Below are positions 34,649 through 62,041 of a stretch of 64,000 bases of DNA, piece after piece. Below the pieces are notes generated by a model, which saw only the letters and a list, made by a program, of their open reading frames with translations, was not told where the DNA came from and did not search any database. Source of the stretch: Roseovarius sp. MMSF_3281 (lineage in GTDB: Bacteria; Pseudomonadota; Alphaproteobacteria; Rhodobacterales; Rhodobacteraceae); assembly GCF_030733685.1 (NCBI RefSeq), contig NZ_JASHIM010000001.1:248001-312000 (forward strand), written 5' to 3'. Numbering within the stretch: the stretch's first letter is position 1; each line of letters begins with the position of its first letter. The position numbers and the translations under genes are program-made.

Positions 34649-36169
34649 TCAATCCCGCCATAGGCCGGGATTTGCCAATGCGATGATGGCAAGGGTTTCA
34701 AGGCGCCCAAGGACCATGGCGGCACAAAGCACCAGCTTGGCGGCCGGGGTCATGGCCAGCAGATCAATCGGCGCTTCGGCGGCGGATTGCGTCAGCGGGC
34801 CGGTAGTGCTGAGCGCGGCGATGGACAGCACGATCGACTCCTGGAAGCTTTGCCCAAGACCGGCCAGCACGATCGTCACCAAGGCCAGCGACAGCGCGAA
34901 CAGCATGAAGAAAATCCATGCGATAAAGGCCCCCTGGCGGCGCAACCGGCGGCTTCCGGAATTGGCGCGCCCCACCGACGATGGGTGAACAAGCCGCTCC
35001 ATCTCGCGGCGGCCATTGAGGTAAAGCGCATAGACCCGCAACAGTTTCACCCCGCCCGCCGTGGTGGCCACACCGCCGCCCACCAAGGCCAGCCCAAGCA
35101 GGATCAGCCCCGGCGTGCCCAGACCCGACCAGCCGCGCGCGGCCTCCCACGCGGCGCTTTCAAAGCCGGTGGTCGACAGGAAGGACAGCACCGTGAACAT
35201 GCCCCCCCACAGCGCGCCCACCGCTTCACCGATGTTTTCCATTTCGTCCACGTCGAAGGCGCCGATGAAATGCCGCGAGAACAGCAAAAGCGGCACGCCC
35301 AGCACCAACAGGATACCGATGCGGAATTCGGGATCGTCCCAAAGGCTTTGCCGCCCGGTTGTCAGGGTATCGGTTGAAAAGGTCAGCCGCGACAGCGCGA
35401 ACAGCAAGAACAGGAAGATCACCACCTCGCCGCCATACCCGGCCGCGCCGTTATGGATACCGCCGATGGGGGAAATCCCGCTGGTGGCCATGGTCGACAT
35501 GGCATGGATCAGCGCCACGAAGGCGCGTTCGCCGTTGATCATCATCAAAAGGCACAGGATCGCCGTCAGGCCAAGGTACATCGGCCCGAGCGTCGCACTG
35601 ACCTGTTGCAGGCGCTTGATGGCGCTGGCCCGTTCGAAGCGTTGAAACCCGGTGGCCTCCTGCCCCGGTTCGGCGCTGGCGGTCACTTCGAACCCGCCCA
35701 GATTGAGCGGTGCAAGGATGGCCGACGCGGCGATCCAGATCATCAAGCCGCCGAACCAGCCCACCAATCCGCGCCAAAGATGCAGCGGTTCGGGGATTCG
35801 GCCGGGATTGTCGAAAAGCGTGGCCCCGGTTGTCGTCAGGCTTGAGACCATTTCGAAATAGGCATTCAGAAAACGGGTGGTCTCAAGCCCCTCGTAAAAC
35901 GGCAAGGCCAAGAACAGCGGCAGCGCGGTATAGGCCAGGAAAAGCGCCCCGAGGTGTTGGATATCGGTGGTGTTTTCCCTGTCTCGCCCGGATATGGCCA
36001 AGCCGATGATCGCCACGCAAGCCAGCCCCAGAACGCTTGAATAGAAGAACGCCCGGGCGACACTGTGATCGTCCAGCATCAGGGCATGCACGGCGGGCAA
36101 AAGCATGGCCAGCGCGGCAAGCCCGGCCAGCACAAGGATCAACGGAAAGGTGAGCAACCGGGCGATCAT
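34649..36169 (-). CDS. trkH: Potassium uptake protein TrkH, membrane subunit
   Basis: A 506-residue K+ channel-like transporter. Four pore loops can be seen: SSLTTTGATLF, MSTMATSGISPIGG, LSFLSTTGFESAAW and IAALSTTGPLTQS. Each carries the glycine of the selectivity filter. About ten hydrophobic segments surround them. TrkH imports K+ with regulation by TrkA, encoded three bases upstream on the same strand, so the two form an operon. A cytoplasmic basic stretch (HPSSVGRANSGSRRLRRQ) lies before the last pore loop. Confidence 0.95.
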   Translation of the reverse strand: MIARLLTFPLILVLAGLAALAMLLPAVHALMLDDHSVARAFFYSSVLGLACVAIIGLAISGRDRENTTDIQHLGALFLAYTALPLFLALPFYEGLETTRFLNAYFEMVSSLTTTGATLFDNPGRIPEPLHLWRGLVGWFGGLMIWIAASAILAPLNLGGFEVTASAEPGQEATGFQRFERASAIKRLQQVSATLGPMYLGLTAILCLLMMINGERAFVALIHAMSTMATSGISPIGGIHNGAAGYGGEVVIFLFLLFALSRLTFSTDTLTTGRQSLWDDPEFRIGILLVLGVPLLLFSRHFIGAFDVDEMENIGEAVGALWGGMFTVLSFLSTTGFESAAWEAARGWSGLGTPGLILLGLALVGGGVATTAGGVKLLRVYALYLNGRREMERLVHPSSVGRANSGSRRLRRQGAFIAWIFFMLFALSLALVTIVLAGLGQSFQESIVLSIAALSTTGPLTQSAAEAPIDLLAMTPAAKLVLCAAMVLGRLETLAIIALANPGLWRD

Positions 36170-55602: not shown

Positions 55603-56888
55603 CAGCCGCGCCGCCGCTCCAGCCAGCCTTCCAGCCGTGCGTTGATCTCGTCGCGCAGGGCTTCGTCCTCGATTTCCTCGACCGCTTCGGCAAGGAACGA
55701 GAGCGTCAGCATATCTGTCGCGATCGCCTTGGGCACGCCGCGCGCCCGAAGGTAATACAGCGCATCCTCGTCAATCGCTCCCGACGTGGAGCCATGCGAA
55801 CAGGCCACGTCATCGGCGTAAATCTCAAGCTCGGGCTTGGCGTTGAACTCGCTGTCGCCATCCAGAAGCAAGGATTGGCTGATCTGGTAGCCATCGGTTT
55901 TCTGGGCATCGGGTTTGACAAGGATCTTGCCTTGGAAAATCCCCTTGGCCCCGTTGCGCAGCACCTTCTTGAACACCTGGCGGCTTTCGCAATTCTGCGC
56001 ATCGTGGGTGACGAACACCGTATCGTCGTGGTGGAAATCACCGTCGCCCACACAGGCCCCGGCAATATGGGCCACACCGTTGTCGCCGACCATCTCGACC
56101 ACGCATTCGTTGCGCGTCAGAACGCCATTGGCAGTCAGCGTGAAGGTCTTGAAGGCGCTCTCCTCGCCCACCCGGGCGAAAACATGCGTTGCCGCGCGCC
56201 GCTCGTGGTCACGCCCTTGGGTGCGCACGTGGTTGAAAGCCGCGCCATCGGCGACGTCCACTTCCATCACATTGTTGAAGCGCGCCGCCGCCGGACCGTT
56301 TTCCAAAACGGTCAGGTCCGCGCCGGCATCAAGCTTGACAACATGGTGCAAGAGTGCGTCGGAACGTGTTGATTTATGGTGATAAATCAGGTTCACGGGT
56401 TTGCTTACCTTGCCGGTGACATGGATCACCACGCCATCTTCCGCCAGCGCGGTGTTCAGCGCCGCAAGCGGGCGATGCACCGGGTCTTGGCCGCGCGCTT
56501 CCATGCTGCCGTACAGGTCTTTTGCCCAATGGATATCGGCCTGCGCCACATCTGAAAGCCGCTCGATGCTCAGACCTTCAAGCGAAAGGTCGTCACTGGC
56601 CTCGGCGTCGAACACTCCATCGACAAAGACGACCTTAAGGCGGTCCACGCCGTCGAAAATCGGGGCTTCGCCCTCGTCGAACAGTGCCGCCTCGGGCACC
56701 TCGGCCTGAACCAGCGTATCGGGCCTTGTGAATTTCCAGTATTCATCGCGTGCCGTGGGCAGGCCCATCTCGCGCACCCGCGCGATGGCGGCTTCACGCA
56801 GTTGCGTCAGCCACGCCGCCCCTTGCGGCAAGCTTACCGTGCTCAACCGCGCCTCGGTCGCGTCCTGTTTTGCCTGCGGCAATGCCAT
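55602..56888 (-). CDS. sufD: Fe-S cluster assembly protein SufD
   Basis: A 428-residue scaffold subunit of the SufBC2D complex. The N-terminal helical part ends near residue 100. The beta-helix core has VKLDAGADLTVLENGPAAAR, NECVVEMVGDNGVAHIAGAC and HHDDTVFVTHDAQNCESRQV. The conserved C-terminal region is QSLLLDGDSEFNAKPELEIY, DDVACSHGSTSGAIDEDALY and YLRARGVPKAIATDML. The His in CSHG is the conserved SufD residue. It begins one base inside the sufC stop (TAATG) and ends one base inside the next gene. Confidence 0.96.
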   Translation of the reverse strand: MALPQAKQDATEARLSTVSLPQGAAWLTQLREAAIARVREMGLPTARDEYWKFTRPDTLVQAEVPEAALFDEGEAPIFDGVDRLKVVFVDGVFDAEASDDLSLEGLSIERLSDVAQADIHWAKDLYGSMEARGQDPVHRPLAALNTALAEDGVVIHVTGKVSKPVNLIYHHKSTRSDALLHHVVKLDAGADLTVLENGPAAARFNNVMEVDVADGAAFNHVRTQGRDHERRAATHVFARVGEESAFKTFTLTANGVLTRNECVVEMVGDNGVAHIAGACVGDGDFHHDDTVFVTHDAQNCESRQVFKKVLRNGAKGIFQGKILVKPDAQKTDGYQISQSLLLDGDSEFNAKPELEIYADDVACSHGSTSGAIDEDALYYLRARGVPKAIATDMLTLSFLAEAVEEIEDEALRDEINARLEGWLERRRG

Positions 56889-57643
56889 TACGCCACCTCC
56901 TCAAGCAGATCGCTGTAACCATTCTTTTCGACTTCCAGCGCCAGTTCCGGACCGCCGGTCTTGATGATCTTGCCATCGGCCATGATGTGCACCACGTCTG
57001 GTTTGATGTGGTCCAAGAGGCGCTGATAGTGAGTGATCACAAGGAAACTGCGGCCTGCGTCGCGCAGGGCGTTCACCCCCTCCGACACCAGCTTCATCGC
57101 GTCCACATCGAGGCCGGAGTCGGTTTCGTCCAGAATGCACATCTTGGGTTCCAGCACAGCCATTTGCAGAATCTCGTTGCGCTTCTTCTCACCCCCCGAA
57201 AAGCCCACGTTGACCGGACGCTTGAGCATGTCGTTGCTCATCTTCAGGGTCGCGGCTTTCTCGCGCACCAGCTTGAGGAAATCGGCCGCGCTCATCTCTT
57301 CTTGGCCACGTGCCTTGCGCTGCGAATTGAGGGCGGTGCGCATGAAGGTCATGTTGCCCACGCCGGGAATTTCCACCGGGTACTGGAACGCCAGGAAAAG
57401 GCCCGCCGCGGCGCGCTCTTCGGGTTCCATATCCAGAATATCCTCACCTTCCAGCGAAGCCGACCCCTCGGTCACCTCGTAACCATCACGGCCGGAAAGG
57501 ACATAGGACAAGGTCGATTTGCCCGACCCGTTCGGCCCCATGATCGCATGCACCTTGCCCGCTTCCACGGTCAGGTCCACACCCTTGAGGATGGTCTTTT
57601 CCTCTTCTTCAAGATCAACGTGCAGGTTCTTGATTTCCAACAT
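56888..57643 (-). CDS. sufC: Fe-S cluster assembly ATPase SufC
   Basis: A 251-residue ABC-type ATPase that powers SufB-SufD remodelling. From ATG 57643 the sequence begins MLEIKNLHVDLEEEEKTILK. Walker A is MGPNGSGKSTLSYVLSGRD, Q-loop AFQYPVEIPGVG, signature FSGGEKKRNEI, Walker B CILDETDSGLDVDAM and H-loop VITHYQRLL. The DETDSGLD variant of Walker B is typical for SufC. It sits between a YbjQ-type gene and sufD. Confidence 0.97.
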   Translation of the reverse strand: MLEIKNLHVDLEEEEKTILKGVDLTVEAGKVHAIMGPNGSGKSTLSYVLSGRDGYEVTEGSASLEGEDILDMEPEERAAAGLFLAFQYPVEIPGVGNMTFMRTALNSQRKARGQEEMSAADFLKLVREKAATLKMSNDMLKRPVNVGFSGGEKKRNEILQMAVLEPKMCILDETDSGLDVDAMKLVSEGVNALRDAGRSFLVITHYQRLLDHIKPDVVHIMADGKIIKTGGPELALEVEKNGYSDLLEEVA

Positions 57644-57697
57644 GTTTTTCGCTCCTAACTCGTGTATTTCGCGGGGCCGGTCCGCCCCTTGTTCCAT

Positions 57698-58044: not shown

Positions 58045-59568
58045 TTAGCCCACCGAGCCTTCGAGGCTGATCGCAACCAGTTGCTGCGCCTCCATGGCAA
58101 ACTCCATCGGCAGCGCCTGCAACACGTCCTTGCAGAACCCATTGACAACCAAGGCCACTGCCTCTTCCTCGTCCATGCCGCGCTGACGGCAATAGAACAT
58201 CTGGTCGTCATCCACCTTGGAGGTGGTCGCCTCATGTTCCACACGGGAAGAGTTGTTCTTAACCTCGATATAAGGCACCGTATGCGCCCCGCATTTGTCG
58301 CCAATGAGCAGGCTGTCACACTGGGTGTAGTTCCGGCTGTTCTTGGCCTTGGGGTGCATGCTGACCAGCCCGCGATAGGTATTCTGCGCCACGCCTGCAC
58401 TGATCCCCTTCGAGACGATCCGCGACTTGGTGTTTTTGCCCAGATGCACCATCTTGGTGCCGGTATCGGCCTGCTGGTGGTTGTTGGTGATGGCGATGGA
58501 ATAAAACTCGCCCTGGCTTTCATTGCCGCGCAGGATGCAGGACGGATACTTCCAGGTGACCGCCGAACCGGTTTCCACCTGCGTCCACATCACCTTGGCC
58601 CGGTCGCCCCGGCAATCGGCCCGCTTGGTCACGAAGTTGTAAATGCCGCCGGTGCCATCCTCGTTCCCGGGGAACCAGTTTTGCACGGTGGAATATTTCA
58701 CCTCGGCGTCTTCCTCGACGACAATTTCAACCACCGCCGCGTGCAACTGGCTTTCATCGCGCTGCGGCGCGGTGCAGCCCTCAAGATAGCTCACGTAAGA
58801 GCCCTTGTCGGCAATGATCAGCGTCCGCTCGAACTGTCCGGTATTTTCCGCATTGATCCGGAAATAGGTGCTCAGCTCCATGGGGCAGCGCACACCGGGG
58901 GGCACGTAAACAAAGGAGCCATCCGAGAACACCGCCGAATTGAGCGTAGCATAGAAGTTGTCGCTCACCGGCACCACCGAGCCAAGGTATTTCTTGACCA
59001 GTTCGGGGTGTTTCTCGATCGCTTCGGAGATCGAACAGAAAATGACGCCCGCCTTCTCAAGCTCTTTCTGGAAGGTCGTGCCGACCGAAACCGAGTCAAA
59101 CACCGCGTCAACCGCCACCTTGCGGCCCTCGGCGGGGGCCTCCTCGGCCCCTTCGACACCGGCAAGGATCATCTGCTCCTTCAGCGGGATGCCCAGCTTT
59201 TCATAGGTTTCCAGAAGCTTGGGGTCGACCTCGTCCAGCGATTTGGGCTTTTCGGTCATGCTCTTGGGACGGGCATAATAATACTGCTCCTGGAAATCCA
59301 CTTTCGGGTAATCCAGCATCGCCCAGTCGGGCTCTTTCTTTTGCAACCAGCGCTGATAGGCCTGCAGACGCCACTCGGTCATCCACTCCGGCTCGTTGTT
59401 CTTTTCGCTGATCAGGCGCACGATATCTTCGGTCAGGCCCTTGGGCGCATATTCCATCTCGATATCGGTTTCCCAGCCGTATTTGTAAGCGCCGCCAACC
59501 TCGCGCACCGCATCGACCGTTTCCTGATCAACGCCTTCCTTGACCTGTGTGTCATCCAGTGCCGCCAT
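58045..59568 (-). CDS. sufB: Fe-S cluster assembly protein SufB
   Basis: A 507-residue core scaffold of SufBC2D on which Fe-S clusters form. Marker segments are [60 protein letters not shown] and [20 protein letters not shown]. Later segments are [20 protein letters not shown] and [19 protein letters not shown] with the C-terminal Cys. The conserved Cys in SYLEGCTAP is one candidate for sulfur transfer. It follows the first desulfurase by 24 bp, in one operon. Confidence 0.97.
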
Positions 59569-59592: not shown

Positions 59593-60636
59593 TCACGCCG
59601 CCCGGGCGCGATGCTTGGTCCATTGCTTCAGCCATGCCTCGCCAAAGCGCATGACCTCGTCTTTCGACGTCTCGGGTCCCAGTGAAACCCTCAGCGCACA
59701 GGCCGCGTCTTCGGGGGTGAACCCCATGGCCTCCAGCGTCCCGCTGGCGCGCACCTTTCCGCTGGAACAGGCCGAGCCGCTGGACACCGCAAAGCCTGCC
59801 AAATCCATCGCCATGACTTGCGTTTCGCCCTTCCATCCGGGCGTTATCATGCAAAGCGTATTGGGCAGCCGCGCGCTATCTTTCCCGACAAAAATAGTCT
59901 CTTTTGCCCCGTCTGCAATCACTTTTTCTAGAATCTTTCTAAATTCGGCAGTGCGCGCCCAAACTCCATCCGAAAGATCCCGCATGGCCGCCTCCGCCGC
60001 CGCGCCGAATCCGGCAATCCCGATAACGTTCTCGGTCCCCGACCGGCGGCCCATCTCTTGCCCCCCGCCCTTGATCCGCGCCGCCACCTCGGTGCCGCGC
60101 TTGACCACCAAGGCACCGACACCCTTTGGCCCACCAAGCTTGTGGGACGAGACAATCGCCATCTCGCACCCCGACCAGTTGAAGGCCAAGGGCAATTTGC
60201 CGAAGCCCTGCGTCATATCCGACATGGCCAGCCCCTCGGGCAGGTCCTGTATCACCCCGGTCTCCGAATTGGCCAGTTGCAACACCGATTGCGCCGGATC
60301 GCTCACCGTCACATGGCCATTCGAATCCACCGGCAAATCCGCCGTGATCCAGGCCTTGACCGCATCATGCTCCACCGCGGCCCCATGCAACCCCCGCCCG
60401 GCACAGGCCAAGGCCGCCGCTTCCGTGGCCCCCGAGGTAAAGATCACATCCGCCCCATCGGCCCCGAGTGCGGAGGCCACCTGCCCCCGGGCCCGCTCGA
60501 TCAGCCCCTTGGCCGCGCGCCCCTCGCCATGCACCGACGACGGGTTGCCGACCACGTCCATCGCCCGGATCATGGCCGCGCGCGCCTCGGCCCGCAAAGG
60601 GGCCGTCGCATTGTAGTCCAAATACACCCGGCTCAA
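59593..60636 (-). CDS. Cysteine desulfurase, IscS/NifS-type
   Basis: A 347-residue PLP enzyme of group I desulfurases. Landmarks are YLDYNATAPLRAEARAAMIR, VHGEGRAAKGLIERARGQVA, the PLP lysine in AIVSSHKLGGPKGVGALVVK, and the catalytic-loop Cys in SSGSACSSGKVRAS. It is shorter than IscS (about 400) and lacks an IscU partner here; it stands second in the iscR-suf operon. In Rhodobacterales this gene precedes sufB and is distinct from sufS at the operon end. The DNA at 59910-59945 is unusually AT-rich and holds an Irr-like palindrome. Confidence 0.93.
   Translation of the reverse strand: MSRVYLDYNATAPLRAEARAAMIRAMDVVGNPSSVHGEGRAAKGLIERARGQVASALGADGADVIFTSGATEAAALACAGRGLHGAAVEHDAVKAWITADLPVDSNGHVTVSDPAQSVLQLANSETGVIQDLPEGLAMSDMTQGFGKLPLAFNWSGCEMAIVSSHKLGGPKGVGALVVKRGTEVAARIKGGGQEMGRRSGTENVIGIAGFGAAAEAAMRDLSDGVWARTAEFRKILEKVIADGAKETIFVGKDSARLPNTLCMITPGWKGETQVMAMDLAGFAVSSGSACSSGKVRASGTLEAMGFTPEDAACALRVSLGPETSKDEVMRFGEAWLKQWTKHRARAA
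59927..59943. promoter_or_regulatory. Irr-box-like palindrome inside the first desulfurase gene
   Basis: TCTAGAA-TCT-TTCTAAA differs from the Irr/ICE consensus TTTAGAA-N3-TTCTAAA by one base. It lies within the coding sequence, about 360 bp before the sufB start. The surrounding 35 bp are AT-rich. It may be chance or a real internal iron-control site. Confidence 0.35.
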
Positions 60637-60680
60637 ACCGTCCGCTCTTTCTTCTTTTCACAAATATCCTGGGGGGAGCG

Positions 60681-60720
60681 TTGAAAACCGCAAGGTTTCA
60701 ACGTGGGGGGCAACGCCCCC
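60681..60720. repeat. Two hairpins between iscR and the desulfurase gene
   Basis: TTGAAAACC at 60681-60689 pairs with GGTTTCAA at 60694-60701 (one bulged base). GGGGGC at 60706-60711 pairs with GCCCCC at 60715-60720. They fill much of the 130-bp gap inside the iscR-suf operon. They may separate the levels of IscR and SUF proteins. Confidence 0.5.
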
Positions 60721-60766
60721 CGCCCGGGCGACGCCGAAGGCGGCGCAAATCCTCCGCGACCGGTCC

Positions 60767-61228
60767 TCATTCCTCATCCACCACGGCAAAGAATGTGGGC
60801 ACCGCCGGACACGGGGCCAAACCGTTGCCCACCACGTCGCTCAACCGGGTCTGGTGCAGGAAAACGTACACCTGTGCGCTCAACCCCTCCCACAAGCGGT
60901 TGGTCATCGACTGCGCCCGCGATCCGCTGGCCGCGCCCGAGGCACCGGCGCCCTTGTGCAGGGCATCCACGGTCTCATCCACCGCCGCCAGCACCTCGAA
61001 CACCCGGATTTCCGATGCCGGCCGTGACAGGCGATAGCCACCGCCCGGCCCACGGACCGAGGTCACCAGCTCGGCCCGCCGCAGCTTGACAAAAAGCTGC
61101 TCCAGATAGGGCAGGGAAATGTCCTGCCGCTTTGCAATATCGCTCAGCGTCACCAGTGTTTCGGCGTCCTGCAAGGCGATATCGACAAGCGCCACCATGG
61201 CGTAGCGGCCTTTTGTGCTCAGTTTCAT
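60767..61228 (-). CDS. iscR: Rrf2-family Fe-S regulator IscR, without the usual cysteine triad
   Basis: A 153-residue Rrf2 regulator. The winged HTH is LSTKGRYAMVALVDIALQDA, then LSDIAKRQDISLPYLEQLFV and SVRGPGGGYRLSRP. In E. coli IscR the [2Fe-2S] cluster is held by three Cys in the loop after the dimer helix; here this region (VDALHKGAGASGAASGSRAQ) has none. Only one Cys, in GLAPCPAVP near the C-terminus, is present. IscR of Rhodobacter sphaeroides is also of this single-Cys type and represses Fe-S genes. It heads the suf operon and has GGAGGAA upstream. Confidence 0.94.
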   Translation of the reverse strand: MKLSTKGRYAMVALVDIALQDAETLVTLSDIAKRQDISLPYLEQLFVKLRRAELVTSVRGPGGGYRLSRPASEIRVFEVLAAVDETVDALHKGAGASGAASGSRAQSMTNRLWEGLSAQVYVFLHQTRLSDVVGNGLAPCPAVPTFFAVVDEE

Positions 61229-61309
61229 GGCGCTTCCTCCGCGAATAGATTGACCTGACCCCGCGCAACGCTTATCTCGGCTAGGGTCTGGCCTGCCACG
61301 CTGGCCTAA

Positions 61310-61326
61310 TTTAGAACATTTCTAAG
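61310..61326. promoter_or_regulatory. Irr box (iron control element) before iscR-suf
   Basis: TTTAGAA-CAT-TTCTAAG matches the Irr/ICE consensus TTTAGAA-N3-TTCTAAA at 13 of 14 positions; the inner TTAGAA/TTCTAA is a perfect palindrome. It lies 82 bp upstream of iscR and 62 bp upstream of the divergent hydrolase. Irr acts when haem or iron is low in Rhizobiales and Rhodobacterales. Confidence 0.75.
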
Positions 61327-61387
61327 GTGCTTGAGCAATTCCGTCAAGAATACCGCCCACACCTTAGCAAGAAGGACAAGGGAATCC

Positions 61388-62041
61388 ATGCCCGAGGTAA
61401 TTTTTCCCGGCCCCGAGGGTCGGCTCGAAGGCCGCTATCACCCCCAAAAGGAAAAAGACGCCCCCATCGCCATCGTGCTGCACCCGCACCCGCAGTTCGG
61501 CGGCACGATGAACAACAAGGTCGTCTATAACCTGCATTACGCCTTTTACAACATGGGCTTCACCGTGCTGCGCTTCAATTTCCGCGGCGTGGGCCGAAGC
61601 CAGGGCGAATACGATCAAGGCGTTGGCGAACTTTCCGATGCCGCCTCGGCCCTCGATTATCTACAGTCGATGAACAACAACTCAAAGCACTGCTGGGTTG
61701 CGGGCTTCTCTTTCGGGGCCTGGATCGGCATGCAGCTTTTGATGCGCCGGCCCGAGATTACCGGATTCATCTCGGTATCGCCCCCCGCCAACATGTACGA
61801 TTTTTCCTTCCTTGCGCCCTGCCCTTCTTCGGGCTTGATCATCAACGGCGCGGCCGATCGCGTGGCACCCCCCGCCGACACGACGGCGCTGGTCTCGAAG
61901 TTGCAGGAACAGCAGGGTATCACCGTAACCCACGACGAGGTCGAAGGCGCCGGTCACTTCTTCGAAGAGCCGTACATGGATTCCATGATCGACAACGTGA
62001 CCGGTTACGTCAAACGCCGACTGACCGAATCCACGAGGTAA
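61388..62041 (+). CDS. Alpha/beta hydrolase, dienelactone-hydrolase-like
   Basis: A 217-residue hydrolase. ATG 61388 is preceded by AAGGGA; the longer frame adds a 19-residue unconserved stretch and would overlap the control region. Landmarks are IAIVLHPHPQFGGTMNNKVV, the nucleophile Ser in WVAGFSFGAWIGMQLL, Asp in INGAADRVAPPADT and His in EVEGAGHFFEE. The HPHPxxGGxMxN motif defines a conserved proteobacterial family whose substrate is unknown. It is divergent from iscR with the Irr box between, which suggests iron-linked expression, although this may serve only the suf side. Confidence 0.88.
   Translation: MPEVIFPGPEGRLEGRYHPQKEKDAPIAIVLHPHPQFGGTMNNKVVYNLHYAFYNMGFTVLRFNFRGVGRSQGEYDQGVGELSDAASALDYLQSMNNNSKHCWVAGFSFGAWIGMQLLMRRPEITGFISVSPPANMYDFSFLAPCPSSGLIINGAADRVAPPADTTALVSKLQEQQGITVTHDEVEGAGHFFEEPYMDSMIDNVTGYVKRRLTESTR

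Follow-up and report, generated by a model that had tools for sequence, protein, structure and literature searches.

The window, ie the whole 64,000-nt stretch that was analysed, carries an isc-suf operon on its reverse strand and an alpha/beta hydrolase gene that diverges from it on the forward strand. The genes and the regulatory features considered here are listed below by window position. The start site is placed from its homologue in Rhodobacter (Cereibacter) sphaeroides, whose position relative to the boxes is given, and the -10 hexamer by spacing.

56888-57697, reverse strand: SufC-like ATPase frame, farther along the operon (named by eye)
58045-59568, reverse strand: sufB
59593-60636, reverse strand: iscS-like cysteine desulfurase gene, bearing the putative internal operator pair
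59884-59899, reverse strand: IscR-type box inside iscS, GACTATTTTTGTCGGG; corresponds to the P3 motif GACTATTTCTGTCGG of R. sphaeroides
59927-59943, reverse strand: second Irr box, inside iscS, TTTAGAAAGATTCTAGA, codons 232-237; corresponds to the P3 box to which Irr of R. sphaeroides binds
60767-61228, reverse strand: iscR (Rrf2 family), single cysteine at residue 140
61310-61326, reverse strand: Irr box of the iscR promoter (P2), CTTAGAAATGTTCTAAA in iscR orientation; 1 mismatch, overlaps the -10 and the predicted transcription start
61311 (about), reverse strand: predicted P2 transcription start
61319-61324, reverse strand: predicted -10 hexamer TAGAAA, within the Irr box, 17 nt after TTGACG
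61330-61347, reverse strand: IscR-type box, TTGACGGAATTGCTCAAG, covering the -35; layout as in the R. sphaeroides P2 IscR box
61342-61347, reverse strand: -35 hexamer TTGACG; TTGAC at constant distance in 56 of 57 box-bearing sequences
61388-62041, forward strand: divergent alpha/beta hydrolase gene, by position the counterpart of R. sphaeroides RSP_0444

The product of iscR, the first gene of isc-suf, was above the cut-off for PF02082 and scored 143 bits against TIGR02010 (IscR), below the cut-off of 207.55. The E. coli IscR has three cluster cysteines, which this Rrf2-family protein, having one cysteine only, does not share. Its relatives are in the Rhodobacteraceae, with Roseovarius among the nearest. 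The iscR-iscS intergenic region holds a palindrome-rich dispersed repeat (60640-60745), with 29 matches in the genome including itself, mostly partial. As RNA, 60640-60766 folded no better than shuffled sequences (z 0.07).

On the forward strand the box at 61310-61326 reads TTTAGAACATTTCTAAG. All scoring was done against the palindrome TTTAGAA-N3-TTCTAAA (TTTAGAANNNTTCTAAA), which we take to be the consensus of the Irr box (ICE), and the site fits it at 13 of the 14 specified positions, the sole mismatch being the last base. Both this degree of match and a location in a divergent promoter region had been claimed in a sequence-only reading of the window, and both were confirmed; the site lies between the start of iscR (61228, reverse strand) and that of the hydrolase gene (61388, forward strand). 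The P3 box of R. sphaeroides, as printed in Nie 2019 (PMC6956336), agrees with the consensus used.

With up to 3 mismatches allowed, the window contains three Irr-like sites compared with a mean of 0.48 in shuffled sequences, and three were reached in 1 of 100 shuffles. In the whole genome (4.3 Mb, 61 contigs), of which the window is C11:248001-312000, there are four sites with at most 1 mismatch, two of them in the iscR-suf operon, where 0.03 would be expected in 4.3 Mb from a second-order Markov model of the window. At 2 mismatches or fewer there were 10 sites in the genome and 23 for the control pattern read backwards. Genome-wide enrichment at that level was dropped as evidence because the control outnumbers the pattern; only a strict cut or conservation discriminates, and the weaker sites in the genome need caution. 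Conservation was followed in the best 80 of at least 574 confirmed iscR loci which, having been selected in this way, are near relatives by iscR and an uneven sample. In these 80 loci (273 kb), 99 sites with up to 2 mismatches fell in two homologous stretches (-270 to -60 and +1050 to +1700 relative to the iscR start) and none elsewhere, with a single site for the backwards control. At up to 3 mismatches the figures were 104, 2 and 14, respectively. Judged by its match and its recurrence among relatives, 61310-61326 is very probably a genuine Irr binding site. The Irr-like site at 35842-35858, with 3 mismatches, is compatible with chance.

When the window was added to the 80 loci, the best upstream match in the 81 sequences was bimodal, with 3 mismatches or fewer in 57 and 5 or more in 24. 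The distance from the start of TTGAC to the start of the box is exactly 21 nt (16 nt between) in 56 of the 57 box-bearing sequences and 22 nt in the other, L051, while the hexamer 17 nt after TTGACN, inside the Irr box, is TAGAAN in all 57. Since the box starts 21 nt after the start of TTGAC, its left half would hold the -10 of the iscR promoter. The composite TTGAC-N17-TTAGAAN3TTCTAA, with at most 2 mismatches, was present anywhere in the genome in at least 327 of 394 genomes of the family, compared with about 66 of 394 for the backwards control (hand count). A scan of 60600-61500 for sigma-70 promoters and terminators found none, and the iscR promoter is recognised by comparison only. In P2 of R. 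sphaeroides the IscR box extends from -36 to -19, over the -35, and a predicted Irr box from -13 to +1; the layout in the window is the same, and by that register the -35 would lie under IscR, with the -10 and the start under Irr.

The promoter box was absent from all 12 loci in which no iscS was found behind iscR (other genes follow iscR in the 10 of these that were inspected), and from 12 further loci in which iscS does follow. The divergent hydrolase gene is present in 80/80 loci. The presence of the box thus follows suf linkage, and neither the hydrolase nor iscR as such; it probably serves suf. An origin of the box outside the family gained no support: it was found (up to 3 mismatches) in 0 of 28 iscS-like loci from other families (L130-L157), a weak result, with sufB alongside in only five of the 28. 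Of 76 genomes 64 gave matches, and the 28 are what is left of their 30 best loci once the window's own locus and another from its family are set aside; they were chosen without regard to Irr. In L129, a locus of the window's family that is outside all counts, the upstream box is perfect and the internal box is absent.

The sequence-only reading had made its proposal depend on there being an Irr homologue in the genome, and one is present. Of two Fur-family genes, the Irr gene (L092:1423-1842, reverse strand, 139 amino acids) scored 209 bits against NF045678 (cut-off 150) and 202 bits against NF045677 (cut-off 170), thereby passing both Irr equivalog cut-offs; it adjoins a fabA-like frame, named by eye. 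Its protein contains HPH within NTHDHPHFFW (by eye), an HXH haem motif of the form described for R. sphaeroides Irr, and is predicted to bind haem. The second gene (L091) matches Fur-type models below their cut-offs. Irr was above cut-off in 70 of the 78 genomes searched (42/49 and 28/29), these being the genomes of the 80 loci less those of L021 and L030. Seventeen genomes with Irr have no promoter box, and in five of these iscR is uncoupled. Irr was below cut-off in G011 (L049), in the Paracoccus genomes G019-G023, in G033 (L029, 108 bits, partial model) and in G076 (L068). Two of these eight, L029 and L068, bear the promoter box; the five Paracoccus and L049 do not, but all six are uncoupled too and their lack of the box is therefore not independent evidence. 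L068, a MAG, has both Irr boxes, yet no Irr above cut-off.

There are eight other sites with up to 2 mismatches in the genome, of which six fit an Irr regulon. These precede dps-like, nfuA-like, mbfA (two), katG/oxyR-like and ccpA-like (di-haem peroxidase) genes. The two that do not fit lie in an aroB-like frame and between sco-like and regA-like frames. The katG, oxyR, aroB, sco and regA frames were named by eye, and the sites at mbfA (two), katG/oxyR, ccpA, aroB and sco/regA have 2 mismatches each. A single perfect Irr box was found in the genome, at L081:1501-1517 (G000:C22:192488-192504), before the Dps/ferritin-like gene. A box with 1 mismatch, L084:1501-1517 (G000:C16:23622-23638), stands 58 nt before the gene for an Nfu/NifU-type Fe-S carrier, and Irr may on this sequence control a second Fe-S assembly gene. 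The katG-like gene and a divergent LysR-type (oxyR-like) gene have a box with 2 mismatches between them (L089:1501-1517), from which a link of Irr with peroxide defence is possible.

A second Irr box with 1 mismatch, absent from the sequence-only reading, lies inside iscS at 59927-59943. A codon alignment of iscS from 68 loci and the window has AGA for 49 of the 66 arginines at codon 233 and CTA for 48 of the 64 leucines at codon 236; from codon usage elsewhere, about 2 and about 1 would be expected, respectively. These rare codons rank first and second in synonymous constraint among 327 iscS columns. Ile235 is ATT in 43/43. A second constrained block, codons 244-252, spells GACTATTTTTGTCGGG, and its codon 247 is ACT in 44 of 46 threonines. 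The two internal boxes are separable: of 76 sequences, 43 have both, 9 the Irr box only, 7 the IscR box only and 17 neither. In L067 and L069 the internal Irr box is kept, and the region of the IscR box (codons about 247-253) is changed and is followed by an insertion of about 10 codons. The iscS site was unreadable in L018 and L078, and iscS as a whole in G007 and G011 (L105, L106); the frame used for L010 holds a stop, and that locus was retained in the counts.

The internal Irr box is kept in all four readable genomes that have Irr and an uncoupled iscR (L096, L101, L102 and L104). It is missing in 5/5 Paracoccus with iscS beside sufB and no Irr above cut-off, in which codon 233 is CGC (four) or CGT (one). 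The same five, a single clade, have also lost the internal IscR box, and their iscR is uncoupled. Their best scores with the Irr models were 66-71 bits compared with the cut-off of 150. A Fur-family protein of P. denitrificans is described as sharing 42-44% identity with Irr, Mur and Fur proteins of rhizobia (PMC9409073), so that the absence of Irr from Paracoccus rests on the family cut-off.

Sixty-seven operons (66 loci and the window) were readable at both places. Of these, 37 have both Irr boxes, 19 the promoter box only, 11 the internal box only and none neither (Fisher p 0.026, descent not corrected for). All 11 genomes with the internal box only have Irr above cut-off. On the IscS tree the fewest changes were 7 and 12, and a paired test had only three independent pairs on supported branches and hence no power. 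That the two boxes compensate for each other is kept as a suggestion only, shared ancestry not having been removed from the 0/67 pattern.

For comparison with R. sphaeroides we used locus L122, taken as that species or a near relative because all four motif strings in the available part of Nie 2019 (P1 Irr-like, P1 IscR-like, P3 Irr and P3 IscR) are present and their positions fit. Six genomes contain the P1 strings exactly, and L122 was the only one of them in which both P3 strings were seen; one of the six, L127, does not reach iscS. The internal box of L122 is intact, and its P2 box, ATTAGAACCATTCCACC, has 4 mismatches and a decayed right half.

The proposal of the sequence-only reading, that SUF synthesis is under the control of Irr in addition to IscR, is supported by position, conservation and the pattern of loss, although the picture it gave was incomplete, there being two Irr boxes. 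We consider it quite probable that Irr has a real operator at 61310-61326, on the iscR-iscS-suf core promoter, that Irr would brake cluster synthesis there, and that a second operator pair lies inside iscS. The left half of the box would hold the -10 hexamer and the right half the transcription start, next to an upstream IscR box that covers the -35. In the species studied, Irr is a repressor under iron depletion (Peuser 2012, PMC3413700), and at iron shortage it would block RNA polymerase at the iscR promoter. IscR would repress when clusters are plentiful; low iron would lift that repression, and Irr would limit the rise that follows, as a brake on cluster synthesis at iron or haem shortage. 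Transcription of sufB and the later genes from an internal promoter, P3 in R. sphaeroides, would be controlled by the pair inside iscS. A brake is the simplest reading of a box that lies over the -10 and +1, and the most likely role of Irr is to restrain iscR-suf at iron or haem shortage. What the analysis itself shows is the sites, their spacing and conservation, the presence of Irr, and the lack of the boxes where suf linkage or Irr is missing. Binding at 61310-61326, repression and a haem signal are what we infer; the haem part would follow from the family, as R. sphaeroides Irr has HPH and no haem regulatory motif, yet binds haem (Peuser 2012, PMC3413700). More broadly, there may be a two-site Irr circuit across the Rhodobacteraceae, with one operator on the iscR core promoter and another in iscS codons, paired with an IscR box, either of which could be lost provided that the other was kept. 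Through the internal pair, Irr and IscR would regulate the suf core independently of iscRS, and the pair would have shaped the iscS coding sequence, with rare codons retained for regulation. Our judgement of this wider proposal is evenly balanced.

Other readings of the promoter box were weighed against the Irr operator. The conserved word might be mainly the -10 region (TAGAAN) of the promoter, as TTGACN and TAGAAN stand at 17-nt spacing, and four of five Paracoccus loci (L072, L075, L077 and L079; by eye) lack the palindrome but retain TTGAC and, at the same spacing, a TAGA-type -10. This is very unlikely: the right half, TTCTAA, lies beyond the -10 and is also conserved in box-bearing sequences, those Paracoccus lack it though the -10 stays, and the same palindrome occurs inside iscS, in R. 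sphaeroides about 50 nt before the P3 start (Nie 2019, PMC6956336), off any -10. Most improbable of all is that Irr at 61310-61326 regulates the divergent hydrolase and not iscR-suf. The start codon of the hydrolase does follow the end of the box by 61 nt, and R. sphaeroides has a promoter (P5) for that gene, but a hydrolase found at every locus does not bring the box with it where iscS does not follow iscR (0/12), and the geometry of the box is fixed to the iscR -35.

The remaining two readings turn on the available results of Nie 2019 (PMC6956336), in which no Irr binding was observed at P2, the iscR promoter of R. sphaeroides. If the promoter box were a relic, Irr would act at the iscS-internal promoter, as reported in that species, and its effect on the iscR promoter would be indirect. 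The box is indeed missing in 11 of the 67 operons, but it is kept in 57 of the 81 sequences and is the only one kept in 19 of the 67, and in L122, the R. sphaeroides-like locus, the P2 box is decayed to an extent that the window's is not; we regard a relic as quite unlikely. It is also unlikely, if somewhat less so, that Irr activates from 61310-61326. The activity of P2 fell about 2-fold in iron-replete R. sphaeroides without Irr (Nie 2019, PMC6956336), an effect which looks indirect given the lack of binding at P2. Against activation, a box over the -10 and +1 is in the position of a repressor, and the induction of isc/suf by iron limitation was stronger without Irr (Nie 2019, PMC6956336). 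Should the preferred reading, a brake exerted by Irr at the iscR promoter, be true, organisms with an intact box would make direct Irr control of Fe-S assembly at that promoter testable, a question not closed by the negative R. sphaeroides gel shift, for which decay of the box is a simple explanation. An operator in coding sequence stands out as extreme synonymous constraint, and other intragenic operators could be searched for in the same way.

Like the isc-suf operon of R. sphaeroides (Nie 2019, PMC6956336), the window has the order iscR, iscS, suf. Gel shifts showed binding of Irr and IscR at the R. sphaeroides P3 region, where Irr binds the box inside iscS in vitro (Nie 2019, PMC6956336), and the internal Irr and IscR boxes are 43 nt apart, start to start, in both L122 and the window. 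The P2 Irr box differs, with 1 mismatch in the window and 4 in L122, and the failure of Irr to bind at R. sphaeroides P2 fits a box decayed as it is in L122. As to earlier predictions, the accounts disagree: Nie 2019 (PMC6956336) credits Rodionov et al. 2006 with predicting boxes for both Irr and IscR in front of R. sphaeroides iscR, and Peuser 2012 (PMC3413700) states that the only Irr boxes which that study predicted in R. sphaeroides were those of mbfA and ccpA. An Irr in Dinoroseobacter shibae is named in PMC8007024, the accessible part of which makes no mention of suf.

Irr binds at mbfA and ccpA in R. sphaeroides, at mbfA weakly, with a KD of about 800 nM (Peuser 2012, PMC3413700). Those ICE sites resemble the iscR promoter box in being Irr operators at a promoter, and the mbfA start lies within its box, as predicted for iscR here. 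They differ in their target genes, and in that the iscR promoter of the window adds an IscR box. We saw no account of conservation of the iscS-internal Irr box over the family in the open-licence literature or in the available part of Nie 2019. An Irr box upstream of iscR-suf is a kind of site already known; new, as far as that literature shows, are the fixed promoter geometry in many relatives, the codon-level conservation of the pair inside iscS and a reason for the negative result in R. sphaeroides.
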